64,000 bases of DNA from Microbotryum silenes-acaulis (lineage: Eukaryota > Basidiomycota > Microbotryomycetes > Microbotryales > Microbotryaceae), in assembly GCA_003665825.1 (NCBI GenBank), contig QPFY01000010.1, positions 372,001 through 436,000 of the forward strand, written 5' to 3'. The notes below the pieces were generated by a model, which worked only from the letters and a program-made list of their open reading frames with translations, was not told the origin of the DNA and ran no database searches. The translations under genes and the position numbers were made by a program. Of this stretch, positions 3,159 through 60,928 are shown piece by piece. Positions within the stretch are counted from its first letter, which is position 1. Every line of letters begins with the position of its first letter.

Positions 3159-6100
3159 TCAGGTCAGGGCGGCCAAGATGTCCAAAACGCTTGCTACGGC
3201 TTCCAGGTGCCAGGGTACTCGACCGGATGCGCCCCAGCGCGCATGTCCGAGCGCGGCGAGATCAGCAAAGCTCTGCATGATATCCGCCACATGTTGCGAG
3301 AGATCGATACGCAGGGTCGAAGTTTTGGTACAGGCTGAGGAAAGTACGTGGAGAGCAAGCACCGATATTGCCGGGCTGGCGGGCATGAACGGTTGGAAAG
3401 GTGCTTGGGCGAACGTCGGCAGACGAGGGGCGTGAATAAGGAACGAGCTGGCCGGGGCGACCAGACTGGAGGACGTGTCAAAGGTGATGGGATGGTTCGG
3501 CGTATGCACGAAGAGGCATGTGCCAGAGTCGAGATGAATGGGCTTGCTTTGGTTTCTCGTACGGCCTGCATGACTCCTACCTAGCGCCGGTGACATGGTC
3601 GTTCCAGCGTCGTTGCCGGCCCCGAGCTCGCCCTCCTCGGACATCGGCGAGCTGGTGTGCTCGGAAGCTTCGTGGAGCACTGGCAACATCGACAGCGCTG
3701 GACCGATCTCAGCACAAGAGATGGTGATATGCAAAGGTCTTCTCAGTCCGCCGATGATTTCTCGGCTGATCTTATCCCACGCTGATAAGTAACGGACGGC
3801 CAGTGTCAGTCGGTTGCTCTAATGCGCAATTGCGGAAAATACGTCCAAATCCGGCTCACCGATAATTTCCTCTTTCGACATGTTCCCGAGTTTGGTGACG
3901 ACGACCCTCCATTCGATATCAGCGGTATCATGAAGCGACTTGGCTGCTTTCCATACTTGGCGCGCCCTCGCCTCCTCCAGCTGCATTTGCGGCGGGTAGC
4001 GCACAATCTGCGGGACCGACTTCCACGTCTCGCCCTTTTCATCGATACCAGAAATGACGATCCACTCGAGGGCAGGACCGTGTTCGCCTTCGGCGGGGGC
4101 GCGAAAGCATCCATAAGCAACGTGGAACAGTCGATGCCGATGCAGGACTTCAAGACTCGAGGGCGGCCACACAAGCGCGAACTCGATGGAAGTCCCCCGC
4201 ACCGGCGAAGCGGTGATGGCGGGGCTCTGGTAAAGACGAGTCAGAGGACCGAGCACCGGATGTCTGCCGATTTGCGACGAAGGGAATGTTTCCGGGACTG
4301 GTGCTGGAAGGCTCGAGACGGATACAAGCAGGGTATCATAAACAGCGAAAGCGAGGCGTCGCAGGCGAGCGGCAATCGAGTCCGCCGACGCGATCGACCT
4401 CCAGCGTGACACGGTCGAGAGCGGTAAGGGGTAGACGACCAGTGACATGGTGTTTGCGCGTAACTTGAGTATGTGTGCCAACGCTGCAATAATGGATGGC
4501 GCCGCAGAGGCAGAGGTCCGAGATGCCTCGGATGGGTCGAGTAGATAAATGACAACATGCTTTCGAGTGCGCGCCGCATCGACCAAGTGGTTGGCTGCAG
4601 AGCGTGGTCGGGAAGTTCAGCGTTCAACTTCAGTGAGAGCAAGAAGGGACCTCGGAGCGAAATGCTACTCACCCATTCCTTTGTAGTCATCCCTCACCCT
4701 CGATAATGCTCCTGCTGGCAGCGCGGCCAAGCCATTCTCAACTCCAGAGAACGTCCCCGAGGCTGCAATGTGCCCCAGTTCATGCCGACCAAGGCGAGAA
4801 CTTTGATAGCCTTCCGAAACGTCGTCAAGCCAACTTGCGACGGCCTCCCTTGTATCAGTATTGAGTTCTTCGAACACTGCAAAGGCTGTTACGTCCTTGG
4901 GACCGGACAGAGGCTCAAAACCCATCGGGTTCCAGAAGTCCAGCGCCGACGTGCTGAGCTGCATGATCGTTCGCTGAGCTCGTAAGAGTAACGTCGGAGC
5001 GTGGAGAGTCGACACTGGCAGTGGATCCGGGTTGGGCGCGACCCGAGCGAGGCGATTGTAGACGATCCGGGTTGCAATTGACGAAGCTGTGAATAAAGGC
5101 ACTACGGCGTCAGGACCGCGCATCTCATCGCGGTTCAAACTCTCGGTCGACTCACCCTTCGCGCCGCTCGACTTGCTGCGCACCTTCAAGGCAGCGGACC
5201 TGTTGCGGAAATCGGGGTTGTGTAGAGTCTGATCCGCCATGAGCCCGACAGTAGTTTCAAGCGCATGTTCTGCTGCCTTCGTCGCCTTCGTCGCCACGGG
5301 CACAGGCGCTATGATGTCCACTTTGGCACCTGCGGTGGACAGCATGCGGTTGAGATGGTCCCGAAGAATCAACAAGCCCGAGCCGAAGGAATTCTCTGAA
5401 GCTCGATGAGAAGGGCCTGTCTCCGTGGCGGCAAGGTCATCTCCACCATGGTGCTGCGGCTCAATGGGCCCATCCATATCGTCATCCTCGCTGTCCTCCT
5501 CTCCTGGGTTGTCGCTGTCAACTTCGGTGAAGCGAACCCATTTTCGGTCTCGTGGTTGGACCCGTGCACATGGATATGAGGTGCCGTCCGTGCCTGGGCG
5601 CTTCTTGGCCAGAGATGGTGTGCGCTTCTGCTTGAGCTGTCGAGCGGCATTGGCGCGCGGATCGCACATTGCGGTTAACCAGGGTACGCCTGACGCCGAC
5701 GCATTCGACATCTTTCCCATGGGAAGTTCCTTACGATCCCAGCCGGGGCTAGGGAGTCCAAATTTGCCTTTGCGAGGATCGTAGCGATCATCTGCCTTGG
5801 CGTGAGAGCTTCCAAACGGGACCGCCTCAAACTGGGTCAACTTCTTCAGCGCGAGTGCATTCGAGGCTGGCGTACCTGCCACCGACACCGTGGCAGTAGC
5901 GTGGGTACCACTGTGGGCAATCTCGGGCTCGTTCTCCTCATCGACGACTTCGACATATGGAGTGTACGGAGTCCGCGGAGTCTTGAAAGGCGATTGCTCT
6001 GCAAGTTGCTGAGCGCGAGGCGTTGTGCCCCCGAGACCGAGCGCATTGTGACTTTGGCTGTTGTCAAAGCTGAAGCTGAGGACGGCGGGTGAGGTGTGCA

Positions 6101-9100
6101 CATTTGGCGAAGCTACTCCCAATGAAGGCGAAGCCGGGCTCGCCACCGAAGGAAACGGCGTGGCTCCTGAGCCAAGGTGACTGAAGTGGTCCAAGAACTT
6201 GGGGCTTGGGCCTGCCGACTGCAGGCCGTTCAGAGTTCCAAGCGGCAGTGACGTCGGTAAGGGCGCGGGGTCGTCGAAAAAGGAGAAGTCGTCATCATTC
6301 AAGTCCATCATCATCCCGTCGTCGAAGTCTTGATTGTGACGGAGTCCGGGGTTCTGTCCGGCGCTAAAGTCCTCACCCCAGTCAAAGTTTGGAAAGGTGG
6401 CGTCGTGCGAGGACCCCAGCTCGACCGTATTCATCACGCTATCACTTCCGACGCCCTCGCTGACAATTGATAGCGCATTCGGGGCTTCGAAGGGAGAGGA
6501 ATAGAGATGGTCCATTTCGGCATTTTTAGTCGTCGTCAGCGCCGACGCGTTCGACGCCTGCATCGTCGCCGGGTCGGTGGAGGCAAATGGCGCCTCCCCG
6601 AGGGCACTCATCAAGCTGCGCTCGGCGGCGCTGAACGCGTCTCCCGGGCTTAGCGCCTCGGTGGACCCCCCAACGAGAGAGATTGGAGTACGCATGCTGA
6701 TCGGCGCACCAGCTGTGGAAGCAACTTTCCCAGGTTCGGCAACGGGCGGCGAAGCGGAGGGTGCGGTCGTCGCCGCAGCGGCAGTGGAAGCTCGCACGGC
6801 CTCGGCTTCCCGCTCGAGCCGGAGTCGTTGCTCCCGTTGTTCTTGAAGCTCCACGATTATGGTGCCCACCTGCTCTACGCGAGCTCGTATGGGGTCATGG
6901 TACGTCGTAGATGACGACGACTTGTGAGGTTTCAACGCGTCTGCGGCGAGCCCCCGATGGAGGGCCGCCGCCAATTGTTGGCGTGTCAAAACGTCGGGAG
7001 AGCTGAGTCCCGCTTCAGAAGTGGTGCGTACGAAAGGGTCCAGAGACGAAGAATCGGCGAGGTCGACCGCCTTTGAGCGAGGCGGTGTGCTTTGAGGTGA
7101 CCGCAACGGTTGTGACCGAGTGCCATCAAGTAGGCAGAGGCTGGCAGGCCACATGACGTCGAGGTGTTCTGGTGAGGAAACCGAGACCTGGGGTGACATG
7201 TTGGCAGTGGTGCCATGCGGAGGAATCAAGATTCGACAAACGAGCCAATGCTCATGCTCGTCCAGCGCGAGGTCCGAGCCGTCGAGAGCATTCAGCCAGG
7301 TCTGGCGCAATGACGCATTAACCCGGCTCGCGTGTAACGAATGCGACGATGGCGCCACAGTTCTGATGAATGTCGCCGGTGTTCCTAGTGGGGCAAGCAG
7401 CACCGGTGCACCGATCGGAACAGGGGTCACTGTGGCTGACAACACAGGGTAGGGCCGGTACGCGACGTCCTCGACGGCGCTCCGCACGAGCAACCCCTGT
7501 AGATTGAGGGATAAATGCAACGTCGTTTTGATCGCTTCGGGCGAGATACGGCGACCGCTATAGCCGAAAGGCTCGCTTGCTGGCGGGAGAATAACGATCG
7601 CTGAGCCCAGCGGCAAAGCCGGGCGCCGCAGCTCGGAGGATGAATGCCCGTCTTCCTGAGCGAGCAGCGATTGGCGGATAACACTGCCGAAACCGGCCAA
7701 GAACGCTTCGCACGGTGAACAGATGCGAGTTTGCGGTTGAGGCGCGCTCGCCGGGCAGGGGAGATCTGCGTGGAATTGAGCGGACAGGGAAAGCACGGAA
7801 GGAAACGCCGAGGCGGGCAACGCAAGCGGCAATGCGACAGATGCTGGCTGCGACGGAGCCGTCTTGGCGTCGCTCGAAGGCGACGTCATCATCTTGTACA
7901 TGGCTGGGAATACATCTCGATGCGCGAAATGGCCTTTGCCAACACCTGTGACATACAGCGACGTCGGGGTCAGCACTCGCGCACGTGGCCACACAAGCCT
8001 CCGCAATTCATGAACCTACAAATGATGTCCGCGAACTCAAGGGCACTCAAGGCTTCTCGAGTGGGGTCGTGCTCGATTGAATCCGAGGATAGACCAAAGA
8101 CCCAGAGCATCCTCCCAACGGCCGCGTCCTGCGCCTCGGTGGCCTTCTCCTTCCCTTTGCCTTTGAAATCCTCGATCGGTCTGACCGCGCTGATTCTGAC
8201 GTACGAGAAGAGCGACGGCACCGCCGATGAGACCGTGTTTGACGCAGACGCGGTGAGATTAGCGGCTACGCGTTGGACTTGCTTCAATGCGAGCTCTATT
8301 GGATCTTGACTGGGATCCACTTTCTGCAAGCCCTGTAGCCTAGCTCGCAATGATGAGCCGGGCGCGGAGCTCGTCGAGGCGATCGGTATCGAAGTCGAAG
8401 GGTCGTCGTCACCGAGAGCTGACCGGGCTCGTTTCAAAGTCGTCGTCGGTGTTGGTGCAGTGGATGCCAAAGGGTCATATTTGGCCGTCGGGGTGTGCTC
8501 GTGCAGCGGCATGCCGAGATGAGACGCCAGCGCCTTGTCGGAAACATTTGTCGTGCTCGGCGGAGTCGGAGGTGCCGCGACCGAAGTGTCGAGTAACGCT
8601 GGTCCACGCCATGCCCTCCAATGAACTTTCCAGCGGCCTTGCCCCGGCAGGTCGACCTGGACCGAGTTCACTCGGACATCCTGGCTGGTGAGGGCCTTGC
8701 GCATGCTCGGTGCTCTCGGCAGCGCGAAACTCGGCGTTGAGGAGGAAGCGGGGTTGGGAGTGTGCGTCGGCGTAGCGAGATGGTGCTGCTGATGCGACTG
8801 CGGCAAGGGTTGCCCTGGTGTGCCCCACTTTGGTGAAGCGGGTAGTGATCCCGGAGTGTTGCTTCCATTCGGACTCGTAGCATTCCCTTGAAACGAGGAA
8901 CTTCTCGCGGCACCGAGCGCGGGCAGCGGCAACGGGCCACCTTGACCCTGAGACTGAGAATAGACCTGGCCCAAAGACTGCTGGGCGGCCGCTGACGCCG
9001 GTCCCGGATACGGCGGCGGCGGCGGCATCGGCAGCCGGGGCATCGGCTGAACAGCGGATGGAGGGGGTGGTAGTGTTGTCGACAAGCCGGTCGTACCAGC

Positions 9101-9232: not shown

Positions 9233-10854
9233 CCCGAATGAGAGGGAAACCGCACGGGCGAACTAATGGGGTAGCGCAGACGAACAGGTCGTCGGAGGGT
9301 AGGTTTGGGGGCGTTCAGGCGAACATCGTCTCAAGGTCGTGTGCACGCGCAGCGGCTGTCGGTCGACGACGTGGGCAGTACGTGGGCCGGGAATGGGGTC
9401 CGGTCGATCAGCACTCAAATGCTCAGCGATCACGAACGGAATCAAGGTTGAGCGGCGCAGCGTTAGGTGGGAATTGAGGTCTTGCTCACCTGCTCATTCG
9501 TGAGAAACACGCTGGAAGCGACGGTAGAAAACGTAGCAACGGGACGGGCGGGAGACGAGCGAGCGAACGAGGACAACACCGCTGGACCGAGTGGGGGATA
9601 GTGCTGCTAGGTGCTGCTGTGCTGTAGTGAGTGTCGCAAGAGCCGTCAGGTCCACGCTGGCAGAGGCCCGAGGCGCGTCACTGATTTCCCCCGCCGCCAC
9701 AATGAACCAAGCTGTACATGATGTCTACTTGAGAAGTAGATTGGTTGGATGGTTCTTACAGAGCTATGTGAAAATCCGTCAAATAGGTACCGCCTTGTCA
9801 TGTCGCACCTGAAGCCTGAGTCTTTCAAGTATATGTGACTGTCAGATCGTGCTCGAATATTTCTCAACGCAACGTTACAGTGAAGCAACCTCATGGAACC
9901 ATAACGCACCATGCAGTGTCTGCTATTCTACGGTTAATTTAGCTGAGCTTTGATGTCAAGGTCGTGCAGTTGCTACATCTGATGAAATTTCAAAAATGGA
10001 ACTGCCCCCTATCGATCGCGAGCCCCGCGCGTCCTACTGGCGCTAGGTGATGGCATTAGGTATGTTGGAAGTGGCCGTGGTATTAGTTAGGGGTTATCTA
10101 GGTACCTAAACAACCGGGTAGGTGGGTGCATCGGACATGGCCAATCGGTGCACCTATTTTGGGGTGGGTGGGGTGGGGAAAAACTGCACCGTGCCTGAAA
10201 ATCCTCGACTTGAAGGCGATTAAGTCTCTGAGTCGCTGTACATTTCAGTCCGTCTACCTCCTAGCGCCGAGTGAATACAGAGTAGTAGGTGCCTAGACCG
10301 CTTTAGCAAGGGTGTCAGCGCTGCATGAACTCCCCTGTACGTCAGCCAAGTGAGATATAGTTGATTAAAGAATTCGTAGTAGTCTGTAAAAAAAAGCGCA
10401 ATCTTGAGCCTTGCCAGATTTCCGAGGCAAGTTTCAGAATCCAGACTGTCGACGTCCGTGACTGTCAAATGGCAAGTAGCGCCGGCGGCAGGTCGCGCAG
10501 TTGGACCGATGTGTATGGGCGGCGCCGACCAAGGCAGAGAAGTGCAGGGTACAAACCTAAGGTACCCAGCAGTTTTCGCAATCAATTGCAAGTGGTCGTT
10601 AACAGGTGCAGTTGTCGGAGCGAAAGGTGGCCCGGCGCGAGCCGGCAACTCGGCTGAAGGTCCCGAAGTTTCATTCCCACCGCAACTTGTCACCAATAGT
10701 GCAACCCGGTGCCGTGCGGACGCGCTGCTGCTCCTCCTTTCCGCACGCTCATCTGACTGGACCGCCTCTCCTGTGCCGTTTCTAACGTGTCGAGTCGAGC
10801 CGACTCTTTGTTGCGTGGCGGCCACTAGCCGAGAAATAGCTGGCTGTTGATCGC
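9233..10854. other. divergent intergenic region between MED13 and BST1
   Basis: About 1.6 kb separate the start codons of two divergently transcribed genes, so both promoters should lie here. I saw no convincing additional gene. The ORFs that overlap the BST1 start on the opposite strand are frame shadows. The one distinctive element is the G-rich block at 10,161-10,178. Confidence 0.6.
10161..10178 (+). other. predicted G-quadruplex motif
   Basis: The sequence reads GGGGTGGGTGGGGTGGGG: four G-runs of three or four separated by single T bases. This is among the most stable classes of intramolecular quadruplex. It lies in the shared MED13/BST1 upstream region, about 930 bp from the MED13 start and 680 bp from the BST1 start. 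A role in regulation is inference only. Confidence 0.75.
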
Positions 10855-13800
10855 ATGCGGGACCCGGCGGGAGTTGCATCACAGGAACCGGGACTCTTGA
10901 GCTCGACCCGATCGACGATCGCACCGGACGCGCTCGACGCCGCAACAACGGCGACAACAGCAAGACCAAAGAGCGCTGGATATGTTGTTCATGTCGCCAC
11001 AAACCGCTCCTCGTTCGGTCGTACCCCCTTGGCTGGGTTCGTCGCCATCATTCTCGTGTCGCTTGTCGCGCTGGTGACCGTGTTGCTCGCACACGTCGCC
11101 TCGCCTCCGCGATACCCGCCGGGATCGTTGCCTCCCGACGCAAAAGGGGGCGGAGCGGGCGCATGTCGACAAAGCTGGATGTCGCCGTCATATCTCCATA
11201 TTTCTGGCACGTCACTTCCTCTCTTTCGGCTGTGGTCGTCACGCGTTCCCGAAGCTCATGCCCGCTTTTTCGTGCCTCGCTCGCCCTCGCCCTCGCCCTC
11301 GCCCTCGCCTGCTCCGAATCCGGATTCCACAGCCTTTGGGCGTGAATACAGTCGGCTAGGCGCAGGACCCTGGGGTCTGTATCTCTACCGGGAGGAAGGA
11401 TGGGACGACGACACTTTCGAGCCGCATGTCGGCCATGGGGCTGCAAGTACCGATCCGACTCCAAGAGCTTTCGCCCTTACCGGAATTCCGGTCATCTTCG
11501 TCCCTGGCAACGCTGGAAGTTTTCGCCAGGTCAGATCGCTCGCAAGTGCAGCAAGTCGAGCTTACTACGAGCTTCCCGGCGTGCGTCGCAAAGGAATCGG
11601 TAGTAAGGAGGGGGGAAGACCCCTCGATTTCTTCACGCTCGATTTCAACAACGACTTTTCGGCTTTCCACGGCCAGACCTTGCTCGATCAGGCCGAGTAT
11701 CTCGCCGATTCGATTCGCTATGTTCTTTCGCTCTACCACCAAGAATCAAACGCGAGACAAGGTCGACCTGACCCAACGTCGGTCATCGTCATAGGCCATT
11801 CGATGGGTGGAATCGTCGCGCGTGCCGCTCTGCTGCATCCGCACTATCAGTCCGGCAGCATCTCGACCCTTGTCACGATCGCCACGCCCCATGCCGTTCC
11901 ACCAGTGACCGTGGACAGGGGTGTGGATCGAGTTTACGACAATATCAATTCGTACTGGCGACGTGCTCATCATCTCGAGGCGATGTCGTCACCGCCTTCG
12001 CGCCGAGACTTACGCGGCGAGGCCGAGCTGTCCAATCTCGTCCTTGTATCTATCTCAGGAGGCATCTCGGACACAACCGTCGCGTCCGAGTCGGCGTCGC
12101 TGACATCGATCATGCCTCTGAACGATTCGCATGGCTTCACCGTCTTTACGACTGCCATCCCGGGTGTGCAGACGCCGATCGATCATCTCGCGATGCTTTG
12201 GTGCCGCCAATTGATGGAAACGGTGGCCACCGCCTTGCTGGTGATTGTCGATGTGCGCTCGCCTCTGGGCGTGCTTCCGCGAGAGGCTCGTGTTGGAAAG
12301 CTGGCAGAGCGCTTGCTTGGGGCCATCGAATCCCACCCAGTCAAACCTGAAGGGCGTAAGAGTACTCTCGAGTCGCTAGAGCGAGGCCAACATGGTCGGG
12401 AGCTGGCGATCGGCGAGCGCCTGTCACTGCGAGGCCACGGGGATCAGCGCTCGACGTTCGTCCTTCCCATTCCTCCGCGGCGAACGTACGGCTCAGCTCG
12501 TGTCTTCTCGCTCCTCACGTCGGCGAATATCGGGCGATCACTCGACAGCTTGGTCGAAGTCTATGCCTGCGGTAAGAACGAGTCGGCGCCCGAGTCGACG
12601 CGCAGCAGTTCCTGCACGTCCCTCTTCCCTTCTTTTGTCACCACTATCCCCATATCGCCTCACTCTGCTCAATCACCGATATTGCCCGCACCCGCTGAGG
12701 ATGGGACGATGGCCTTCCTCAACGTCGATGTCTCTCAGCTCGAAAGTCAGGATGTGATTGTCGTCGTCGTCAAGCCGGGTAACGCCTGGCTCCTCGCCGA
12801 ATTCGGGGACAAAGATCGGCGTGTTCACACCGTCGACAAGTCCGCTTTCCGTGAGTCCTACCTAGCTGTATCCGCCCTGCATGAACCTTACTGAATACTG
12901 AACGCTCGCCTATTCTTCTCAGAGCTGATGCTTGGCGGCTTCAAAATTGAGAACTTTCCGACCACGCCCTCGCTCATCTCTGAGCTTTGGCTTCCCGCGC
13001 TGGACTCGTCTCTGCTCACGTTCAAGATGAAGGTCTTCCGGAGCGATTGCCAAGGTGAGCATAGGAATATTCGATACCAGCTCACTTTTATCACCTTTCA
13101 GCAACTAATCCTATCCGAACCCTTACAGACTCGTCCACCGTCCTCTTTGCGCCATTGCTGCGGCAATACTCGTCGCTGCTGCACGAATCCAAGTATTTCC
13201 CCAATGTCCGCGAGGCTTCCTTATACACGCATGCCTCAGGACCGTACCTGCCTGCTCCAGCGTCACCGTTCGTCTCGTCGGGCGCACGTTTGCAGCTCAT
13301 CGTCGATCCGACCTGTGCCCGCGAGAACTCTCGCGCATCCGCGGATGTTGCGATCGAGATCAAGCTCGACCTGTGGGCGTCGCTGGGGAGCCTGGCGATG
13401 CGCTACCGGATGGCGGTCGTTGCCTTCCCTTTTGCACTCATCCTGTTGGTATTCGCATGCCAGCTCCGGGACTACAATTCGGGACACTCCTTCCCGCCTT
13501 TTGCCACGGCCCTCGGCACGTTCGCGAGACATCACCTCATGCCGTTGCTCGGCGGCCTCGTAGCGCTTTCTTTCCTGCAGTCCGTAATGTTGGGCACGCG
13601 CCTATCGTTCGCTGAAGCAAAGCTCGCAAGTGCAGACGCCCACGTCCTCCCGTCGTCGCCGCCGAGATGGATCTCGGAGATGCTGCTGGGCAATCAGGGC
13701 CCCTTCTTCGCATTTCTCGGCGCATTCATTCTCTTCACCATGCTCTCGGTCGTTGTCCTCGAGTATGCTGCGCTCTACCTACTCGTCACTGTCCTGGCTC

Positions 13801-14654
13801 GACTCGTCCGGCTGATCCGTCAGCGGGGTCCTTCCCCAATGCGGTCCTTTGTTACGCTTGTGGAGCCTCGGGAAACGCTGCCGCTGCAGCGCATCGTGAC
13901 GATGGGAGCGCTAGTCTTGTTCGTGCTCTTCTTTGCCCCCTACCAATTCGCTTTCCTCGTCCTCTTCCTCGTGCACCTCCTCTCAACCGTCAGGGCGCTT
14001 CTGTTGGCGCAGGACGCCAGCGCGCCCTCTACGCCTGCATCGACTCGCCGCCTGTGGGATCGCTATCACTACTCGTTTGTCTCCCTCTTAGTCATGATCG
14101 GTCTCTTGCCCATCAATGCCATGATTCTTGCGGTCTGGGTGCGCAACCTAGCCGTCGGATGGCTTGCGCCATTCTCTACTGACCACAACGTACTCAACAT
14201 CCTCGGCTTCCTCCTCAACGTCGAGGCACTGCATTCGGGCAAAATGTTGCAGCGCACGCCTGGTCCGTAAGTCGCCCTCGCGTCTTTCTGATTCCTAATT
14301 CAGGTTTCTTATCTTTTCGTTTCCCTTACTGACTCGCCAGCTGACTTGGCTTGCAGAACGGCCTCGACTGTTTCGATCGCGCTACCCCTGATCGCAGCAG
14401 GGTTTGCGCTGCTGTACGGCATTCGCTGGACATACAACATCTACCCTCTCGCCAACGCATTCTTCCTCTGGCTCGCTAGCAACCATTCGCACCATCTGGT
14501 GGGGGCTCTGAATGAGGCCGTCAAGGCAAAACGGCGGCTCAGCATCTCCACTGCTGGTCAGCACGTTCAGTCGAGCTCGGTAAAACAGCTGAGCTCCAGC
14601 GCACTGTCGCCGTCCCCCGCGCCGCGCACTCCGACGAAGCGTCAGTTTCTGTGA
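10855..14654 (+). CDS. BST1: GPI inositol-deacylase (PGAP1/Bst1 family)
   Basis: This ER membrane enzyme removes the acyl chain from the inositol of GPI anchors, which helps GPI proteins leave the ER. Four exons (10855-12850, 12923-13054, 13129-14266 and 14357-14654) join in frame to give about 1,187 residues. An N-terminal membrane anchor (LAGFVAIILVSLVALVTVLL) is followed by the Bst1 signatures GPWGLYLYREEGWDD, IPVIFVPGNAGSFRQVRS, LDFFTLDFNNDFSAFHG and the lipase motif GHSMGG, whose Ser is the nucleophile near residue 315. The C-terminal 450 residues contain several hydrophobic segments, as in the family. A run of Ser-Pro repeats sits near residue 145. All splice borders are GT..AG. Confidence 0.93.
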
Positions 14655-15581: not shown

Positions 15582-16635
15582 GAATTTCAAATCCGTGGTG
15601 CATGCGCATCTCGATACGTGCACTCAAAAACTACAAAACACGAAAAGGGTTCACAAGGGAGGCTCAATGTAGGAGTTGGATCTGGCTAGGCTAAACAAGG
15701 ACAAGTCACCTTCCACTTAGCACCGCCAGCGTAAGAGTTCCGAGGTGAAACCAATTCGAAAGCAACAGAAAAAGAAAAGGGGACCTTGTCGACCGAGGTG
15801 GAGATGGCTCGAAGACCGTGTGCAGCTGGAGGTTGATGCGTACACTAAATTAAGCTGTCTGGTACCATAGGACTAGGGTACATGCTACTCACTGATGTTT
15901 AGGGTACCGTGAACCTCCCTTGATCCGAGCAGGTGAGATCGGTCCACTCGGTGACGCAGTGGAGGCTACTCTGTGGAGAGTGTAGGCGAGGATCGAATCG
16001 TCAGCCCCGTCTCGCCCGTCGTCAAGGGCCGGCGAGTACGATCGATCCATCGATCGATCCAGGGTCAAAGCAAAGACTCACGGGGTACATCAGATGCAAG
16101 CGGTCTTGTGGACCATACACAGCCTCAGCGACATGCCGTAGGCGCCATTCAACACTCGTCGACGAGTGGATAGGCTGATGGCAAGCCGTGACGCAGCGAG
16201 AGACGGTAAGGTCGGAGGCAGTGGCGAGGTGGGAAGCGAGAGATCACAATGAGAGGGGAGAGGTGGTGTGGGGTAAGATGATGGAGGTGATGTGGTGAAA
16301 GATGGACGCGAGACGGGTAAACACGAGACGAGTCAGTCCGACCCTACGCCACACAAACACGATCACAGCTAGGTGGTTACTCACACTTTTGACGGTGGGA
16401 GGGATCGAACGACAGACTCTACCACACCACAAAGGCCACCGTTTCGTATCCTCCTGAAAAGGGGGGCGATGTCGGCAAGATTAAGTGGTGCGAGGGTTGC
16501 AGAGCGCGTCGACGAGGAGAAGGAAGGAGAAAGAGAGAGAGGCGACGAGCTCGAGGTGGTCGCCGACTTGGGTGCGGGGCGTGCGCTTGGCAGAATGAGT
16601 CATGTCATCGATATGACGCCACGCTGTGACTTCAA
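15582..16635. repeat. left inverted arm (copy A)
   Basis: About 1,054 bp that recur in reverse orientation at 33,797-34,929. The inner 700 bp are almost identical: an 81-codon and a 62-codon shadow ORF are the same in both copies, and only about three changes appear in the 300 bp nearest the inner border. The outer 300 bp are more diverged. The outer tip reads GAATTTCAAATCCGTGGTGC and is shared with the solo copy near 60,900. The inner border is CTGTGACTTCAA. No gene was recognised inside, and the ORFs here look incidental. The arm is likely the terminal, non-coding part of a transposable element or segmental duplication. Confidence 0.85.
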
Positions 16636-16697
16636 ACGGTCAAACACGGCCACGACTGCCTCGGTGACGCTTTAGAGGTCGTTCCAGACGCCCTTCT
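16636..16697 (+). repeat. 62-bp module shared by both Fanzor loci
   Basis: This 62-bp sequence is identical (62 of 62 by eye) to the reverse complement of 32,972-33,033. Here it directly follows the left arm and leads into the XPG-like gene region. In the other copy it is fused directly to the splice acceptor of Fanzor exon 2. It may be the start of a transcribed or coding region, but no start codon or family motif settles this. Confidence 0.85.
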
Positions 16698-16860
16698 CTC
16701 TCGGGAGACGAACCTGAGCAGCGCGCTGGTTTCCCTCGTCGGCAAGATCGATGGCAAGTCCTTCCTCAGAGCCCCTTCGCAGCCCATAACTGCTCCGGGA
16801 CGATTTGCCGAGCAAACCCTAGCTGACCCTATACGCTGTCCATCACTATTCTCCACTCAG

Positions 16861-18308
16861 TCGCCATCATCGACGGCTCTACCACATTCCAACATCAATG
16901 CAAAGCCGCGACGGACCGCGCGAAACACAACGAGCCGAAGCGAGGCCGGTTGTTCCTCAATGCGATCATTCGACACCTCGAGGAGATCATTGCAGCGACG
17001 GCAAGGCGGATCCAAGTGGTCGTGGTATTTGATCATCCCATCCTTCGTCCCGAGCTCAAGCGGAACACCGTGCTCGATCGCCAAGATCGCCAGCAGCCGC
17101 AACAGCCTTCCGATAAATCGACCCCTGTCACCCACCCCGTCCCCTTCATCACGAACGACACCCTCGCCGCGTGCGTTCACGGACGATCGAGCAAAGAATG
17201 GGAGGTCGCTTTTTGCCACGGTGACGAGCCAACCCGAGTCGCCACCTTTGTTCGCTGGTCCGAGCAAGGCTTGCTCGTCGTCGCGGCCCACGAGGCCGAT
17301 CCCCTCGTCTCGGCGTCGACCAAGTTTGGCCAGATCTGCGACGTAGCGCTCGAACCCAACCGCGTCGTCCTCGTGAGCGCCGACAGCGACTTTTTCATGC
17401 TTCTCGGCGCCGACCAAGCCCGTTATCGGGGCGTGCTATCGGGCAAGGACCAACACATCAGCTTGGTAGACCTTGCCGTGCTCGACGCTCACCCCGCGGT
17501 GTGGAGTTCTCGTTAGCGATTCGTCGCGAGCCTCATCCTCGAGTGCGACTATTTCAGGGGCATCAAAGGGATCGGGCCAGCAGGACTTCGAAAGTTGCCT
17601 GGGCAATGGTTGGACGCGGCGACGTGGCAGAGTGGCTGGGAGCGCGCCGTAGATGCGCTGCAGCTGGTCCAGAGGAACGTCGACTCGGAGGCGGCGCCGA
17701 CGGCTGATCGACTCGAGGACATCAAGTCGCTCTGCGCCAAGATCGATCCCATCCAAGACCTCAATCTCCGACGCCATCTTGCCAAGGCTCGTCGACTTCA
17801 GGCCGAGCAGCCGGCCCGCATGGCGTCTACGCGGAAGCTCGCCGTTCAAGGTACCGTCAAAGCGCCCGATTACCACCTCGTCGAGCCCGAATTCAGGGAC
17901 AGCCAAGTAGATCGTCAGCACAAATCCAAGAGCGCCGAGCCAAAAAAAAGGCAGATGGCGACCATCGCCGCCGAAGTACGGGCGCTGTTCTCGAAGCAAT
18001 CGGACTCGGGCGGCAGCGGCAAGACCCCTGGCGGTACGATCTACCGCATGTCGACGGTGACGGGTACGCTTGAGCAAATGGTGAGGGAATCAACGATGCC
18101 AGGCGAGTTGAAGCAAGGATCACTTCGAGTCCGACGAGCCATGGCCAGGACGACGGTTCAAGAGGTTGGAGCGAGCGCACCGTCGGCAGCGCGGGACCGA
18201 ACAAGCTCCGAGCACGATGAGTGCCTGGATGTCGAGTGTCACTTGGCTTCGGTCAGCGATTCCGGTTCGCGCGACGACGGGATCGTACCGATGCAGATCG
18301 ATGGATGA
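16861..18308 (+). CDS. XPG/FEN1-family (PIN-like) nuclease, 5' end unresolved
   Basis: This resembles structure-specific nucleases of the XPG/FEN1/GEN1 superfamily. After an acceptor at 16,860 the frame shows VAIIDGSTTFQHQ (first metal aspartate), VVVVFDH, then the I-region VVAAHEADPLVSA and LVSADSDFFMLLGAD, then the helix-hairpin-helix signature CDYFRGIKGIGPAGLRKLPG. A basic, low-complexity tail ends in QIDG and a TGA at 18,306-18,308. An in-frame TAG at 17,514-17,516 lies just before the H3TH motif. It is either a premature stop or lies in a 51-base phase-0 intron (17,466-17,516, GTAGAC..TTAG) that would remove it. A first exon upstream, within 16,640-16,850, is expected but not identified. 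The gene lies between the left arm and a Fanzor fragment on the same strand. Confidence 0.7.
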
Positions 18309-18754
18309 GTTGACTCGCGAGACGGAAAGTCGATGCGTCCTGTCGGAAGGGCTTGGGGCGTGTCTCGCTATACTTCGATAATTTCGTATGTGCTTTCTTC
18401 GAAGCTTGTGCTCACTGCATTCGCGCCTCAAGTTGGTAGATGGTTTCCAATATGCTGTTCAGTATCAGTGGTGTAGCGTTTTTCTTTTTCTTTTTTTCAG
18501 TTTCTGATAAAAAGGAATGTTCACACGGGTCGTGCGGTACGCGGCTACACTGGACATGTTCCATAGGGTCGCTCCTGAGCCGGAACCGTCTCAGCTCTGG
18601 CTAGCGGGATCGCGTGATTGGCTCGAAATTCGAACGTCTCGTCCGAGCGTAGATAGTGTAGATCGAGGTCGATCCATGAATGGAGACCGTGGTCGGGAGT
18701 TTCTTCTTTATACACTGGCTGCGGTGCTCGCATCTGAACCACCGCGCGGCCGCG
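18309..18754. other. spacer between XPG-like gene and Fanzor fragment
   Basis: No ORF with recognisable content. It contains a strong polypyrimidine tract ending in CAG at about 18,480-18,500, which could be a splice acceptor for an unrecognised upstream exon of the Fanzor gene. Confidence 0.4.
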
Positions 18755-19563
18755 ATGCGTTTTTTTCTGACGTCATGCCCGAAATCAATTTCGGACAGGA
18801 GACATTGCGCCCGCGCTGGGCACGCCAGAGCACGCCGTGTCAGTCCGGCCCCACCCATCTCTCGGTTCCGGACCATCAACGGCAAACTCCATCCACCACA
18901 CTCCAACGGTATGCCCTTCAACCGTTTCGAAACCCCCAATCGTCCCAGGCCGGCCCTGGATGCCTTCCAGCCGGTCCTTCGCCTCCTGGCCGTCTCGAAT
19001 CGCGAGGTCGAGAGCATTCTCGCCGATGCTCTCGGCCGTTGCTTGGGGTATCTTACCCCCGCGCAGTGGCAGAAACTTGGACTCGACAAGAATCGCTGGC
19101 GAACCTTGATCATGGCGATAGTGTACCTCTTGCGCGAGGACGGCGTGGCAGGCAGTGCGGGCCAGGGATCCAGGTGCCACACGAGGCTCGACGACCCGCT
19201 GACGCTGCCCGACAAGGCGTCAGTCGGGCCGCAGAAATACGAAGAGGAGCAAGAACTCTTCCGTCGCGTCTCGAGTGGCAAGGACGTCATCGGGTTCGCG
19301 TTCGTGAGTACACGGGCGGTTTCGTTACCCGTGGACGGGTGCCAGACCTGACGCCGCCTGTCCTGCGCACACACCCCTTTTCCCTCTCGTTTCGCAGGCC
19401 TGGACTAGCGTCATCCGGGCCACGATGGAAACCAAGGAGAAGAGGCCATCGATTCCTCACTTCGTGCACGCGCCCGAATGGTGGGACGACCGGGTCGTCA
19501 TGATGATTGTCGGTCTATTTGGATGGAAGGATGCGATTCCTTCGGTCCTTCGTTCGTTTGCCT
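18755..19563 (+). pseudogene. Fanzor N-terminal fragment (copy A)
   Basis: Two exons are visible. Exon 1 runs from an ATG at 18,755 (a later in-frame ATG is at 18,911) to a phase-0 donor at 19,303. It includes WRTLIMAIVYLLREDG. Exon 2 starts at 19,398 with AWTSVIRATMETK and continues with EWWDDRVVMMIVGLFGWKD. Exon 2 aligns with the first exon of the minus-strand Fanzor gene at 32,370-32,969 (WWEDRVVMLIVGLFGWKD). The frame then passes near 19,560 into LINE sequence, so everything downstream, including the RuvC nuclease domain, is missing. The Fanzor identity is therefore borrowed from the other copy. The protein similarity is clear, but the DNA is only moderately alike. Confidence 0.65.
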
Positions 19564-29880: not shown

Positions 29881-32800
29881 TTAATGGTACTGCTTGAAGG
29901 GGTGGTGGTCGGAGAAGAGGCAATGGAGGCCCGCGAACCTGATATTCTTGCCTGCGACCAAATCACGATGGACAGGGGGTTGACATCCGCGTTCGCACTG
30001 ATAAACGCGGAACAGCGGCTTCGCGCTGCCCTCGACGGTTCCCTTGTTGTTGAGCCTGTAGAGGGTAGGGCGACGAAGGAGAACAACGTTGGTGATCAGA
30101 CCAGCAAACATGACCTCGACTCGGCCCTGTTCGATCTCGGAGACTGACCTCGACCGGTGGCCGTGCTCGTTCCGACAGTCTTGGTTACTGCATAGCGACG
30201 ACGTCAAATCTTCATCGACGTAGTAAACCAGAATATCCAAGCCGACGCGCTTCAGACGCTCGATCTCTGCAACGAGCGCCCGCAGGAAGACGTTGGTGCG
30301 GTAGATCGCGTGAACCGTGCCACGGCTCGAGCCACCCGCGCCGATGAAGAAAATGAAGAGGCGTGGCTCCGACGACAGGATGTCGTCTCGAAGCGCCAAC
30401 TCGGGCGAGCGCAGGCTGCCGAGGGCTTGCTGCTGGCGAGTTCCATTCAAGGCTCGTTCTGAGTGAGGAAGGGAAAGACCAAAAGAAAAGAGAGAAAACC
30501 CCGCCGTCCGGGCCAGAGTCACGCAGTGGTCAGTCACCGCGGGGGGGGGGGGGGGGGGGGGGGGGTTAGGCGTGCCACCAGAAGCTCGATCGGCGCCGGG
30601 AGGGCCCCTGTCAACTTGGTGCACTCACCGACGACGCGGACACCCGTCGCGCTCATCACTTGGTCGACGAGGCGCTGAACGGTCGCTTTGGCGTGGACCC
30701 GGGAATTGTGCACTGCTGCCTGGCGTTCTGGCTCGGACTGCAGCCACTCGGTCGAAGGTGCGTCGTCCGATGTGCCAGCATGCGACCGATGGGCGTCGGT
30801 GGCAGCTACTGCGAGCGCGTCGGTAGGGGCGATTGGGGCAGGGGCGCGAGGAGCGGGGCCAGGAGTGGCGGTAGCGGGCACGACACGAGGCATTCCGGCG
30901 GTGTTCGGCTCCGACGAGATCTGCAGGCCGAACCTAAGTTCGGCGTCGATTAAGCGCGTGCGCTCTTGCGTCGAATGAAGGGCGTGATCTGCGGAGGACG
31001 CGTATAACACCAGCTCGTCTTCCATTGGGCATCCGTTCCGATCGTACAATCTGGAGGAGATGGCCACGGGGCACTTGGTACCCGGGTCGATGCCGACAGT
31101 GACTACATCGCGGTTAACCCCGGCTTCGAGCTCACTCGCCAACTCGTTGCAGCCCGGAATGCAGGTGGAAATTGGTGGGAGCTCGTAATCGCCCCACGAC
31201 TACCCGGTCGATATGAGGTGCAAGGAGGAAAGGCACCACACGAGGTTAGCAAACTTGGGTTTACAAAGGATCAATGCCCCCCACTCAGCTCGCGTAGGAG
31301 TGGAACGTACCTCCCCAGTCGCCGTTTGAAAGATCGCCTGCAGCGCCTCTTCCCTCCCGTTCTCAACCCTCTGGATCATTGGCATGCCCCCGGGGAGGGT
31401 GGGAGGTTGCTTGACCGCACGTTTGGGGACCCAGCGCACCGACTGCTCCTCGTGCCCCACTCCCTTTGGGTTTGTGGCGGTCTTTGGGACGGAGGGGATC
31501 TTTCGAAGACTCTGAATCAGCTTGCGGAAGATGGGACCCGCGTTCTTGGACGAATGCCACGTTGGGTAGTGCTCGGTGACGAGGTCGAACGTTTCGTATA
31601 CCGTTTGGCGAGGAACAATCGCAGCTTCAGAATCAGGCGACGAGCGAGCTTCGAGAACGGCCTCTGCGACATCGAGCGTGAGGATCTGGACCGAATGGCC
31701 GTTGGTTAACCACTGACCATGTGGAACGCGGTGGGGACCAAAGAGCTCGACATTGAAGAGCTGCAAGACGACGAGCGGTCCCTTGCCGGTCAGGTAACGC
31801 GGAACGCCATCCGAGTTGGGCTTGAAGAGGCTTCGGTCGGACTGGGCGGCGGTCACCTTGCGCACCTTGGTGGGTGGGCCGAGGTCGGCGTTGTCACTGT
31901 CGGAGTCGCTGCCAGGAGCATCCGACCGGGGTCGGGTTGTGACGGAAAAGATGCCATGAATCGTCGCTTCGCAAAACGCAAACCACTGGGCCTCCCATTC
32001 GGGGCTAATTACCCATTCCTCGCCTCCGCCTCCTCCTCCCAGCAGCACACCCTTCGCGTCGACTTGTCGCCTCAACATCTCGCGAACCCTTTGACCGGCG
32101 CCGGCGAATTCCTCGTTCGTCGTCTGCGCATCAGCACGCTGCGCAGCCCACGGGATCCAGACCCCATCGAGCCATTTGACAAGCACTCGGGCAACCTCCG
32201 GTCCCTTCCAGAGGATGATTGCGGTACGGCGCAAGGACATCGTTATAAATTCCGGCGCAAAGTCCTGTGAAGTATCGGGGGGCGGGTCGAGCTTCGGTCA
32301 GTACGAAGCGCTCACTTGGCTATACCAATGCAGTGGCAATTCCACCCGAAGGTGTCAAGGGGTGCTCACCGGTCCGATGCCTAAGCTACGACCACTTTTG
32401 ATCTTGAGCGCGTGCAGTGCCGGAAGCAAGACCTGGGTCGGCAAGAACTTGAACTTCCCCTTCACCAGGTCGCCGAGCGTGTGCTGGCGGCGGAGTTGCA
32501 CGCGCTCAATCGGACCGATCATCCTGTCGAGGTGTTCTTCGACGACTTGGATTGCGTCGAAGATCACCCCGCGGGCGGATGCGTAGATCGTGTCGAACGT
32601 CGCGGTCTTGTACGAGGCACGGAGAGCGGCCTCGAGCCTGGGGTCTGCAGTGGCCGGGTGGGTCGCCCTGTCGCGTAGCAGAGGAACCAAGAGAATCGCC
32701 TCGACAATGCGCTTGAGGCTCTGGTTCCGAAAACTCGCTTCGGCCACCTTGAGCTCGTAGACTTGGTGGCGACCCCCGGCGGTGGGGGTCACAAAGCCGG

Positions 32801-32969
32801 CCGAGGCGAACACGCGAAGGACCGCAGGTACCCGATCCTTCCACCCAAAGAGCCCAACGATCAGCATAACCACACGATCCTCCCACCAATCCGCCGAGTG
32901 AACGAGCTTCGGCACGAAGACCCTGTGCATCTTGGTCTCGATTGTTGCTCGTATGACGCTTGTCCAGGC
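29881..32969 (-). CDS. Fanzor (TnpB/IS605 OrfB-like) RNA-guided nuclease, first exon missing (copy B)
   Basis: This is a eukaryotic relative of TnpB and Cas12. Four exons on the minus strand (32,969-32,370, 32,264-31,311, 31,199-30,629 and 30,458-29,881) join with matching phases to give about 900 codons. RuvC-I appears as VVTVGIDPGTK near codon 555. RuvC-II and the zinc ribbon appear as VYYVDEDLTSSLCSNQDC near codon 790. A second Cys pair (YQCERGCQ) is followed by RuvC-III as HRDLVAGKNI near the C terminus. The segment FFIGAGGSSRG before RuvC-II also fits the family. All three catalytic acids (D, E, D) are present. Exon 1, seen in copy A, is absent: the acceptor of exon 2 (CTTCTAG) is fused to a 62-bp repeat. 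The first in-frame ATG is at 32,930. The last intron carries a 25-base C run. Confidence 0.82.
30541..30565. repeat. 25-base G:C homopolymer
   Basis: An uninterrupted run of 25 G on the plus strand (C on the coding strand of the Fanzor gene). It lies inside the intron between the last two Fanzor exons (30,459-30,628), upstream of the CTCAG acceptor. Its exact length may be unreliable because such runs are hard to sequence. Confidence 0.9.
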
Positions 32970-32971
32970 CT

Positions 32972-33033
32972 AGAAGGGCGTCTGGAACGACCTCTAAAGC
33001 GTCACCGAGGCAGTCGTGGCCGTGTTTGACCGT
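32972..33033 (-). repeat. 62-bp module, second copy, fused to Fanzor exon 2
   Basis: Reverse complement of 16,636-16,697 with no differences seen. Its end (GACGCCCTTCT) touches the AG of the Fanzor exon-2 acceptor. In copy A, about 2.7 kb carrying the XPG-like gene and Fanzor exon 1 separate the same two points. This reads most simply as a deletion junction. Confidence 0.85.
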
Positions 33034-33796
33034 CATCGGAGGAGGTATGAGGTGTGTAGGTGCAAGGCGCAAGGCACAAGGTGCAGGGTGCAGGAAGAAT
33101 CAAGGGTGTTCGAGAACGTCGCGCTGCCCGCTAGCTCGCTCCGAGCCGAAAAGCAAACGGGGGCAGGTCCAACAAAGGGTCGTTCGAGCTCAGAGTAGTG
33201 TGAGAAGATGCATTATAATGTCTCAAATTGTACCGTAAAATAGCCTGTACCCCATATTCGTTATTTTTGCTCTCAATCTTAGTCTGGTCAAGGCGGCGGC
33301 CTCCTTTCGGAAGATCGCAGTGGGGAGCTTGAGCGTCCACGATCTAGGCAGCGAGAATCCGCCAATTTTCTAATGAACAATGGATCGACGTACATGTAAA
33401 AAAATCATCTTTTCTTCTTTCAATATGACTTTGTCTTTGGGTGCCACCCTACTTGCATGACAGCCTCGACTCGCTGCGTCGGAGCTCTCGCGTGAAGCCG
33501 GTCCCGCAACCCAGCTCCGCGGCGGACTCGAGGTCGAATCGGGGTCGTCCCAACTCGGACCAAGCTGCTGGAGCGACAACCGCTGTATCGATCGCGGCGA
33601 TCTCAACTCTGGGGTGATCCCTGGAGCTCAACCTACTTGCTGAGATTTGACCGAGCTTGATCGACAAGGTATTTGGTCTTTCCGAGGGGTGGATCGTTGG
33701 CCTCGATGTGGGGTGTACGGTCCCCTGTCCGTTCAGGTCTTCGGCGCTCTCGGCCGCTCTCGGCCGCGCTCGGCAGAGGTGGAGAAGATCGAAAGG
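33034..33796. other. 763-bp segment present only in the right copy
   Basis: In the left copy the arm and the 62-bp module touch each other. Here they are separated by 763 bp. The segment contains a short imperfect repeat (GTGCAAGGCGCAAGGCACAAGG) near 33,059 and GCTCTCGGCCGCTCTCGGCCGC near 33,746, and no recognisable gene. I saw no clear target-site duplication at its borders, so it could be an insertion here or a deletion in the left copy. Confidence 0.6.
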
Positions 33797-34929
33797 TTGA
33801 AGTCACAGCGTGGCGTCATATTGATGACATGACTCATTCTGCCAAGCGCACGCCCCGCACCCAAGTCGGCGACCACCTCGAGCTCGTCGCCTCTCTCTCT
33901 CTCTCCTTCCTTCTCCTCGTCGACGCGCTCTGCACTTCTCGCACCACTTAATCTTGCCGACATCGCCCCCCTTTTCAGGAGGATACGAAACGGTGGCCTT
34001 TGTGGTGTGGTAGAGTCTGTCGTTCGATCCCTCCCACCGTCAAAAGTGTGAGTAACCACCTAGCTGTGATCGTGTTTGTGTGGCGTAGGGTCGGACTGAC
34101 TCGTCTCGTGTTTACCCGTCTCGCGTCCATCTTTCACCACATCACCTCCATCATCTTACCCCACACCACCTCTCCCCTCTCATTGTGATCTCTCGCTTCC
34201 CACCTCGCCACTGCCTCCGACCTTACCGTCTCTCGCTGCGTCACGGCTTGCCATCAGCCTATCCACTCGTCGACGAGTGTTGAATGGCGCCTACGGCATG
34301 TCGCTGAGGCTGTGTATGGTCCACAAGACCGCTTGCATCTGATGTACCCCGTGAGTCTTTGCTTTGACCCTGGATCGATCGATGGATCGATCGTACTCGC
34401 CGGCCCTTGACGACGGGCGAGACGGGGCTGACGATTCGATCCTCGCCTACACTCTCCACAGAGTAGCCTCCACTGCGTCACCGAGTGGACCGATCTCACC
34501 TGCTCGGATCAAGGGAGGTTCACGGTACCCTAAACATCAGTGAGTAGCATGTACCCTAATCCTATGGTACCAGGTAGCTTACTTCTAGTACACGCTTCAA
34601 CCTCCAGCTGTACACGGTCTTCAAGCCATCTCCACCTCGGTCGACAAGGTCCCCTTTTGTTTTTTGTTAATTTCGAATTGGTTACACCTCGGAACTCTAT
34701 GTTGGCGGTGCTCAGGCGACTTTGTTTTTTGTTAATTTCGAATTGGTTACACCTCGGAACTCTATGTTGGCGGTGCTCAGGCGACTTGTCCTTGTTTAGC
34801 CTAGCCAGATCCGACTCCTCATTGAGCCTCCCTCGTGAACCCTTTTCTCGCATCCCTAGTGTTTTCATTTGTGTTTTGTAGTTTCGAGTGCACGCATCGA
34901 GATGCGCATGCACCACGGATTTGAAATTC
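33797..34929. repeat. right inverted arm (copy B)
   Basis: Reverse complement of the left arm at 15,582-16,635, almost identical over the inner 700 bp. It is longer because of a perfect 65-bp tandem duplication at 34,656-34,785. The outer tip ends in CCACGGATTTGAAATTC and lies 95 bp from the start codon of the F-box-like gene. It contains the 51-base hairpin-forming segment at 33,990-34,040. No gene was recognised inside. Confidence 0.85.
34656..34785. repeat. perfect 65-bp tandem duplication
   Basis: Two adjacent identical 65-base units starting TTTGTTTTTTGTTAATTTCG and ending GCTCAGGCGAC. The left arm and the solo copy near 60,740 carry a single, slightly diverged unit, so the duplication happened in this copy. 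Confidence 0.93.
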
Positions 34930-35024
34930 GATGGCTCCATACTACCCTCCTGAGGCTCGAGGCTCGAGGTCCCGGGTCCCCTCCGCGACGATTGGGCGAC
35001 TTTGCCCGCGACACTCGCCACAGC

Positions 35025-52050: not shown

Positions 52051-53821
52051 TCATCTATCGTCGCCACGCGAACCCCCTTGCCGATCGAGAATCTTGTCCC
52101 GCTCTCGCTCGCGCTCGACCTGCATATGCGTCTGCCGCAACGCCAACACCTTCTCCAACCTCCTCCTCCCTTTGGTCTTCTTCGGTATACCCTGATCCGC
52201 ACTCGAGGCCAACTTGGTCTTCTCCTTTAAGAACAGAGCCTTATTTTCTTCGGCTTGTGTCCTCAACCTCTCGACGGCCCCGTGGACGATCATCTCTTCC
52301 TTGAGCTTGACCATCGTCGCCAGACCGTCAATCAACGGTGTCGGGATGTGGTATTTCCTTCCGAGAGCCGAGACGTAGCCATTGATGTAGTCCATCTCGG
52401 TCTTCGTAGCGAACTTGCCCCGCAAGCGTGCCGGGCCAGCTTTCTCCCCAGTTGGTAAAGGGCGGGGAAAGATCCGAGCTAGATCCTGGATCGGTTCGAT
52501 CGCTTCGAGGTCGGCTAGGGTCGAAGAAATGTTGGTGGACGTGGCGAAGATGACCTTCATCATCGCTTGGAGGAGGGAATGTTCGGATAGGGCATGATTG
52601 TGCGCGAACGTTCGCGCAGGTCTTGGATGGATCGTGGTCGGGGTTGAGTCGTCGTACGAAGCCGATGCGGAATCGGACAAGGCCGATGCCTGTTCTGCTT
52701 CGCCGTCCTCTTGGGGACCCATCACGTGCGCCGCAAACACACTCGAACATTCCCTCGCGACCTCTCTGCACATATCCTTCGCCGCTCGACTGCCGACCAA
52801 AGCCCCGTTATGCACCCCCACGATCGCGGTCAAACTGTTGATGGCGCAGTTGATGGCCAATTTTTGTAGTTGTGCTATTTGTAGTTGGGGTAGAGGGAGC
52901 CAGAGGGGGTTGAGGTTGGTGGTGCGCAGTAGGAGGTCGAGGGTCGCGTGGAGGGAGGATGAAGTGGGGAGGTGTTGCAGCGTGGGAGAGATGAGGGATC
53001 GTGGATTGAGGAGAGGGTTGGAGGAAGGTTCGTCGGGCCAGTGGGATTGGATCGAAGAGAGCGTCGCCCGATTGGGTACGACGCCGAATTGAAGGTTGCC
53101 CAATCCGGCATGGACGAAATGGTCGGCCGATCTGCGCCACACGCCGTGGGAGGTGGTGACGCAGATGAAGGAGGGGCGACCTCGGCGATGGCCGTAGTCG
53201 GAATAGGGGTCATCGCCCTGGTCGTCGGGCCAGTACTGTTCGAGCAGGTTCTCGAGTACGCCCATGCCGTTGTGGCAGAGCACGATCGTCGACGAGGACG
53301 AGAGCCGAGGTAGGAGGTGCTTGATCGCCTTGAGCGCCTGGGGTGCTTTGGTCGTGGCGATGAGGGTGGAGATGGGGTCCTTGCGCGAGAGACCTCCACC
53401 GGTGGAAGGGTACTTGGACGAGCTGATGGAAGGGACCACGTGGGCGGAAAGGGGGTCGATTTGCAGTTGGTCGGTCGGGGTGAGCGTATGTTCGATCTCG
53501 AACGCGGCGTAGCGGTGGGGTATGCCGTCGCGTTCGATCGTGAGCGCGACGCGGGGCTGGGTGTTGGAAGCGGACGAGGACCGAAGTGAAGTCGAGGCGG
53601 AGGGTGTGGGTCGAGCGACGAGATTGGCGAGCAGGTCCTTGCGGCGTACGATCAGCCGAATGGTCGGCGGCGAAGGAGTGGCTGCGAACGAGGTCGCCAG
53701 CAACGATCCGATCGAGCCGACTACGAGAGGGGGAGAGCACGCGTTAGGTCAGTCTGGGTGAGGTCGACAGGGGAAGAGGTCGAATGATGGCAAACTGACC
53801 GCCCAGACAGTGTATCCGCAT
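52051..53821 (-). CDS. 2-dehydropantoate 2-reductase-like (ApbA/PanE family)
   Basis: This is an NADPH-dependent ketopantoate reductase by family; that step makes pantoate for coenzyme A. A 22-base first exon (53,821-53,800) encodes the start of the Rossmann fold, and exon 2 (53,720-52,051) completes it as MRIHCLGVGSIGSLLATSFA. Further hallmarks are VLCHNGMGVLENL, KLAINCAINSLTAIVGVHNG with the conserved Lys and Asn, and TKTEMDYINGYVSALG with the catalytic-site Glu. The protein is about 563 residues, much longer than bacterial PanE. It has Ser/Pro-rich insertions and a highly charged Lys/Arg/Glu C-terminal helix that ends in GGSRGDDR. Given this extra length, a role other than pantoate synthesis is possible. 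Confidence 0.82.
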
Positions 53822-60692: not shown

Positions 60693-60928
60693 GGTCTTCA
60701 AGCCATCTCCACCTCGGTCGACAAGGTCCCTTTTTCTTTTTCTGTTGCTTTCGAACTGGTTTCACCTCGGAACTCTTACGCTGGCGGTGCTAAGTGGCAG
60801 GCGACTTGCCCTTGTTTAGCCTAGCCAGATCCAACTCCTACATTGAGCCTCCCTCGTGAACCCTTTTCGTGTTTTGTAGTTTTTGAGTGCACGTATCGAG
60901 ATGCGCATGCACCACGGATTTGAAATTC
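60693..60928 (+). repeat. solo copy of the arm outer end (copy C)
   Basis: About 236 bp matching the outer ends of the two inverted arms (34,609-34,929 and the reverse of 15,582-15,830). It starts at GGTCTTCAAGCCATCTCCACC and ends at CCACGGATTTGAAATTC, exactly the tip seen in the other two copies. Nothing of the inner arm, the XPG-like gene or the Fanzor genes accompanies it. That fits a solo terminal fragment or a small non-autonomous element. Confidence 0.8.

Follow-up and report, generated by a model that had tools for sequence, protein, structure and literature searches.

A probable Fanzor/TnpB-superfamily gene copy with a 5' deletion in a multicopy element of Microbotryum silenes-acaulis, and a predicted flap-nuclease-like gene upstream of its relatives

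The window (the whole stretch of 64,000 nucleotides of Microbotryum silenes-acaulis DNA analysed here) carries on its minus strand a spliced gene, probably of the Fanzor/TnpB superfamily, that has lost its 5' part and belongs to a multicopy element in which, at several loci, a predicted XPG/FEN-like nuclease gene lies upstream. The Fanzor-like gene is encoded in a multicopy element of a eukaryote, with about 20 loci, a common left end and GT-AG introns. The features of the window, among them three ordinary fungal genes, and the groups of related loci in the genome are collected in Table 1.

Table 1. Features of the window (positions counted from its first letter) and groups of Fanzor-like loci in the genome
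Feature	Position	Strand	Remarks
Med13 N-terminal	4665-8012	(-)	ordinary fungal gene
PGAP1	10840-14267	(+)	ordinary fungal gene
3'-truncated element copy	15582..19563	(+)	left end, flap-nuclease-like gene, N-terminal part of B-type Fanzor-like gene
Rad2/XPG/FEN-like gene (predicted)	16636..18305	(+)	one in-frame TAG at 17514-17516; five stretches, seven expected acids present
B-type Fanzor-like gene start, truncated	18911..19563	(+)	begins MPFNRFETPNRPRPALD...
Fanzor-like exon 4, to stop codon	29881..30458	(-)	RuvC-II, cysteines, RuvC-III HRD
RuvC-III D861	29964-29962	(-)	motif HRDLVAGKNI
C854	29985-29983	(-)
C850	29997-29995	(-)
C790	30177-30175	(-)
C785	30192-30190	(-)
RuvC-II E778	30213-30211	(-)	motif VDEDLTSS
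Intron, 170 bp	30459..30628	(-)	GT-AG
Fanzor-like exon 3	30629..31199	(-)	RuvC-I motif GIDPGTK; D543 at 31088-31086
Intron, 111 bp	31200..31310	(-)	GT-AG
Fanzor-like exon 2 of window model	31311..32264	(-)	middle region
Intron, 105 bp	32265..32369	(-)	GT-AG
Fanzor-like exon, partial	32370..32930	(-)	first in-frame ATG at 32930; homologous frame open from 32969
Internal-deletion junction	32971..32972	(-)	flap-nuclease-like gene start joined to acceptor AG of Fanzor-like intron
Flap-nuclease-like gene, first codons	32972..33036	(-)	MTVKHGHDCLGDALEVVPDAL; severed by deletion
Element 5' region	32972..34931	(-)	left end TCGAATTTCAAATCCG at 34931; pieces common to B elements, about 88-98%
Ketopantoate reductase	52054-53748	(-)	ordinary fungal gene
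A group	window; C2:950 kb; C5:1066 kb; C5:922 kb; C2:276 kb
B group	C9; C17; C18; C1; C2 at 966, 1577 and 1841 kb		B model 63% identity to P0001
C group	C7:737 kb; C2:478 kb; C7:1012 kb; part at C1:1027 kb		37% identity
D group	C5:57 kb; C12:932 kb

Removal of three GT-AG introns joins the four exons into a single stop-free frame of 887 codons, or 900 codons counted from position 32969, which bears out the earlier note, made from the letters alone, in its claim of four exons in frame coding for about 900 codons. All three splice junctions agree with the protein P0001 of Microbotryum saponariae (1027 residues, 92% identity); in P0001 and in other copies at least one additional exon lies upstream of the most 5' exon of the window model. 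The motif order that the note had described, with GIDPGTK followed by VDEDLTSS, two cysteine pairs and HRDLVAGKNI, is found complete in the spliced protein. The cysteine pairs have the form CX4C and CX3C with about 60 residues between them, an unusual spacing. The Fanzor pattern D-X(125,275)-[TS][TS]-XX-C4-X(5,50)-RD, taken from Bao and Jurka 2013 (PMC3627910), is present in the window protein and in none of 2000 shuffled proteins, the cysteine spacings having been widened for this test and full shuffles being a weak control. The third intron contains 25 consecutive G (C as read along the gene) at positions 30541-30565.

A tblastn search of the 29.85 Mb assembly with the window protein gave 78 matches, which by our own count fall into about 20 loci including fragments; the groups A, B, C and D were set by identity. 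All three RuvC motifs are found in five of the ten A and B models (the window, C2:950 kb, C5:1066 kb, C18 and C1, the last with one stop), while the model at C2:966 kb is without the RuvC-I stretch and those of four other A or B loci end before the C-terminal motifs. The C models retain the three motifs in all three cases with one or two stops each, and at each C locus the in-frame stop falls within an apparent intron starting GTAGGT. For the window gene, dN/dS lies at 0.20-0.23 in comparison with three B models (dS about 1.2) and at 0.25 with one C model (dS saturated), and ratios of about 0.2 between subfamilies point to long-term selection on the Fanzor-like protein. Among close copies the ratios rise to 0.56 and 1.44 for the window against two A copies (few changes), 0.59-0.73 within B and 0.71-0.82 within C, so that the recent copies appear to be decaying under weaker constraint.

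The left end of the element has 26 genomic matches with at most two mismatches, and its reversed control has none. In the B copy on C9 the element is at least 7.9 kb long, counted from its left end to a point shortly after the stop codon of the Fanzor-like gene. Three B copies have about 418 bp in common past the stop region, the part from about 230 bp onwards being a repeat found elsewhere; in two other B copies the similarity breaks off about 12-20 bp after the stop, and the right end of the element may lie there. The A and B elements are 89% identical in the left part and about 90% in the flap-nuclease-like gene, and only 63% in the Fanzor-like genes. With similar left parts and flap-nuclease-like genes next to diverged Fanzor-like genes, the elements look mosaic. 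We infer that the element is mobile. No target-site duplication was seen for it; in the search for a transposase, none of 10 further open reading frames of the two window copies matched a Pfam family at an E below 0.2, and two flap-nuclease-like pieces gave no Pfam match, the scanned frames being part of those of the family. A Helitron was considered and rejected: the left end begins with TC, but the preceding base is not regularly A. No sign of a guide RNA was seen: there was no Rfam match, and the 3' end is not more structured than its shuffles (z 0.76). Synonymous constraint over the last 100 codons is marginal against B (p 0.03-0.06) and absent over the last 60 codons and against C.

Several unusual arrangements of the element were also seen. 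At locus L053 (C2:958500-962499) an A-type and a B-type element stand back to back at 1835 and 1869, with left ends about 33 bp apart. In locus L056 (C24:120950-121950), at about 120-890, two left ends in inverted orientation form a foldback, which is inserted close to the middle of a palindrome (GATTAGCCAGA...TCTGGCTAATC). In the window, an isolated short fragment of the left end lies at 60690-60930 (minus strand), and a perfect 65-bp tandem duplication is found at 34656-34787 within the 5' region of the element.

At ten loci, all seven of group B, one of group A and both of group D, a second gene on the same strand lies between the left end of the element and the Fanzor-like gene. At the A locus (C2:949-957 kb) it lies about 3.6 kb upstream of the Fanzor-like gene; at the D loci (C5:57 kb and C12:932 kb) it has diverged to 31% identity with the pairing kept. 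The copy at C2:276 kb occupies the opposite strand. This gene resembles, on weak support from its sequence, the Rad2/XPG/FEN flap nucleases. Its sole sensible PDB match is yeast Rad2 (4q0w), found with a composite query at E 0.0019, two other queries reaching E 0.096 and 1.4 against Rad2 and a seven-member profile giving no PDB match. Acids at the positions that we take to be those of the seven catalytic acids of XPG/FEN nucleases (five stretches) all occur in order in the plus-strand copy of the window and in the C9 and C17 copies, the latter two with E in place of D at one of the seven; six other copies with a match retain one to four of the five stretches. Pfam XPG found no match in two window pieces or seven homologs, the XPG_I matches of the genome all lie at places other than these loci, and the AlphaFold model is useless (mean pLDDT 30); the gene is therefore called XPG/FEN-like only, and not a member of the family. 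In a PHROGs search with the family no match fell below E 0.026. The protein database, from which at most 7998 candidates were scored, yielded 12 homologs, all from Microbotryum.

We hypothesise that the two predicted nucleases work in partnership. The competing explanation, to which we give a little less than an even chance, is that they do not cooperate and are neighbours only because one repeat lineage picked up both. In its favour, several of the 52 tblastn matches of the flap-nuclease-like gene in the genome, including those at C24:87 kb, C16:458 kb, C10:470 kb and C14:121 kb, lie at places without a listed Fanzor-like match. In the same direction, the gene was not seen in the examined DNA of four C loci or at C5:1066 kb and C5:922 kb, and no open reading frame of at least 100 residues in the C-type flanks, inspected by eye, resembled it. 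The mosaic A and B elements, alike in the left part and flap-nuclease-like gene and different in the Fanzor-like gene, fit this explanation as well. It accounts less readily for an order and strand that are constant in B, A and D, even where the D gene has only 31% identity, and for another species, M. lychnidis-dioicae, in which the homologs of the two genes carry the consecutive locus tags MVLG_00388 and MVLG_00389.

The assignment to Fanzor proposed in the earlier note is partly supported. The single Pfam match of the window protein is PF07282 (Cas12f1-like TNB), at E=0.0078 and 16.8 bits, below the curated cut-off of 26.3; exon 4 alone reaches 21.7 bits. Three C-type paralogs, each joined across one intron from two exons of its own locus, score 30.4, 28.7 and 24.9 bits, so two of the three pass the cut-off. 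A five-member alignment (A1) was built from two M. saponariae proteins, the window protein, one B model and one hand-edited C model. PF07282 is matched by all five members (E 1 or better, best E 6.2e-6) and is the sole Pfam family found with more than one of them, four others matching one member each (best E 0.0044); its match spans RuvC-II to RuvC-III. In NCBIfam, guided_TnpB is the sole family, with three of the five members and a best E of 0.0022, far below its cut-off. Residues D679, E918, C925, C930, C990, C994, D1001 and N1007 (P0001 numbering) are invariant in A1, at identities down to 37%; the A copy at C2:950 kb, outside this alignment, has lost one cysteine. A six-frame PF07282 scan of the genome gave no match, and the PDB, searched by sequence with three queries (the window protein, alignment A1 and a C-type RuvC region), returned no nuclease and no Fanzor structure. 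The AlphaFold model of the Fanzor-like protein is poor (mean pLDDT 32), and of its matches in the PDB the first, third and fourth are of Cas12 type, the best at E 0.029 and none at 0.001 or better. Viral contigs searched with the alignment gave 40 stretches fitting a pattern and no relative among them, and the protein database, again with at most 7998 candidates scored, yielded five Fanzor-like homologs, all from Microbotryum.

A rival placement is in a different zinc-ribbon family of transposases or nucleases with an RNase H fold, one that would move the element itself and use no guide RNA. The window protein falls below the Pfam cut-off and has no Fanzor match by sequence in the PDB, its cysteine spacing is unusual, no guide RNA signal was detected and no transposase was recognised in the 12 further frames scanned. 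We consider such a family unlikely, given that PF07282 is the only Pfam family found with several members and passes its cut-off in two C-type paralogs, that guided_TnpB is found in three of five members, and that the order of the motifs and the TNB match between RuvC-II and RuvC-III fit Fanzor/TnpB. TnpB/Fanzor is thus the best-supported family for the window gene, which by its sequence likely belongs to the Fanzor/TnpB superfamily.

The catalytic residues were described in the earlier note as apparently intact; the letters are indeed all kept, but the gene copy is without its first ~115 residues owing to an internal deletion, and the wording is misleading. Homology to the Fanzor part of the window ends at 32971 in L031, L033 and L035-L039 and at 32969 in L040. 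From 32972 onward the similarity to the six B loci L035-L040 resumes 2.87-3.26 kb farther upstream; the spacing between the deletion points in the six B copies is thus 2.87-3.26 kb, and the window deletion about 2.9 kb. P0001 begins about 115 residues earlier than the window protein and the B model is likewise longer. Since the deletion joins codons of another gene to an intron acceptor, the first ~115 residues are lost, and with the N-terminal exon or exons deleted the window copy is probably inactive, making no working nuclease. A shortened protein that is functional, domesticated or expressed to this day, using the internal ATG at 32930 and the 5' region of the element, would suit the open 900-codon frame, the intact splice sites and the AG acceptor kept exactly at the junction, yet it is very improbable in view of the ~115 additional residues of P0001 and the B model, dN/dS values against the two A copies that are as for decaying copies, and a flap-nuclease-like start codon that is not in frame with the Fanzor part.

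For a Fanzor-type protein of full length, a mechanism can be outlined. The protein would bind RNA made from its own element, and its RuvC D-E-D site would cut DNA matching the guide of this RNA. Through guided cutting the element could return by copying to sites that lack it, or persist in the population. The part of the flap-nuclease-like partner would be to trim the branches or flaps in DNA that arise from excision, cutting or repair, and an enzyme of mobility may act in trans. In its furthest form the proposal is a two-nuclease mobile module of anther smuts, in which a Fanzor-type guided cutter would open the target, an XPG/FEN-type flap nuclease replacing a classical transposase would work on the branched ends so as to insert or retain the element, and the Fanzor cassette would be swappable between elements with one 5' end and flap-nuclease gene. 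This full scheme is speculative, and we think it more doubtful than not by a wide measure.

What is new here is the flap-nuclease-like gene found upstream of a Fanzor-like gene on the same strand, a pairing that was not found described in the literature searched. In that literature, the main texts of open papers, Fanzor had no joint mention with Microbotryum, with XPG or with basidiomycot-; Fanzor and flap endonuclease are mentioned together in published texts. A Fanzor-like gene with a second predicted nuclease, diverged subfamilies and recent copies offers a comparative system for testing what Fanzors do for their transposons and whether they depend on partners. A 2013 survey names nine fungi with Fanzors in its Table 1 (PMC3627910). 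The present family hints at unusually long Fanzor relatives in basidiomycetes, which sequence profiles come close to missing. To our knowledge, none of the nine fungi in that table is a basidiomycete.

Among known systems, the TnpB proteins are prokaryotic, of about 400 aa and with canonical CX2C pairs. Unlike these, the window family has CX4C and CX3C pairs; with TnpB of IS200/IS605 (InsQ of IS609; ISDra2 TnpB, 8bf8) the likeness is confined to the RuvC-III/zinc-ribbon stretch, the profile of 24 InsQ-like TnpBs aligning at the RuvC-III region only (E 0.0077, probability 5%). The flap-nuclease-like gene has in common with Rad2/XPG/FEN1 (4q0w, Rad2) the acidic residues in the expected order and a GCDY..GI.GIGP stretch, presumably the Rad2/XPG/FEN1 motif; it differs in having no Pfam XPG match and in being multicopy within a repeat element. 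PGv-1, which carries transposase, endonuclease and Fanzor (PMC3627910), likewise combines a Fanzor gene with another nuclease in a single element; the transposase there is of the Mariner type, whereas here the partner is Rad2/XPG/FEN-like and no transposase was recognised in the scanned frames. Fanzor1 proteins occur in fungal transposons, as in SPu-1/SpuFz1 of Spizellomyces punctatus (PMC3627910, PMC10432273 and PMC11423790; see also PMC10711439). SPu-1/SpuFz1 resembles the window family in the RuvC D-E-D residues, in a C4 ribbon placed between RuvC-II and RuvC-III and in multicopy elements with many degraded copies. The protein SPu-1-1p has 633 aa in a single-ORF element of 2.1 kb with 33-bp inverted repeats (PMC3627910), whereas the Microbotryum family has proteins of about 900-1030 aa encoded in at least five exons, an element of at least 7.9 kb and a second gene.
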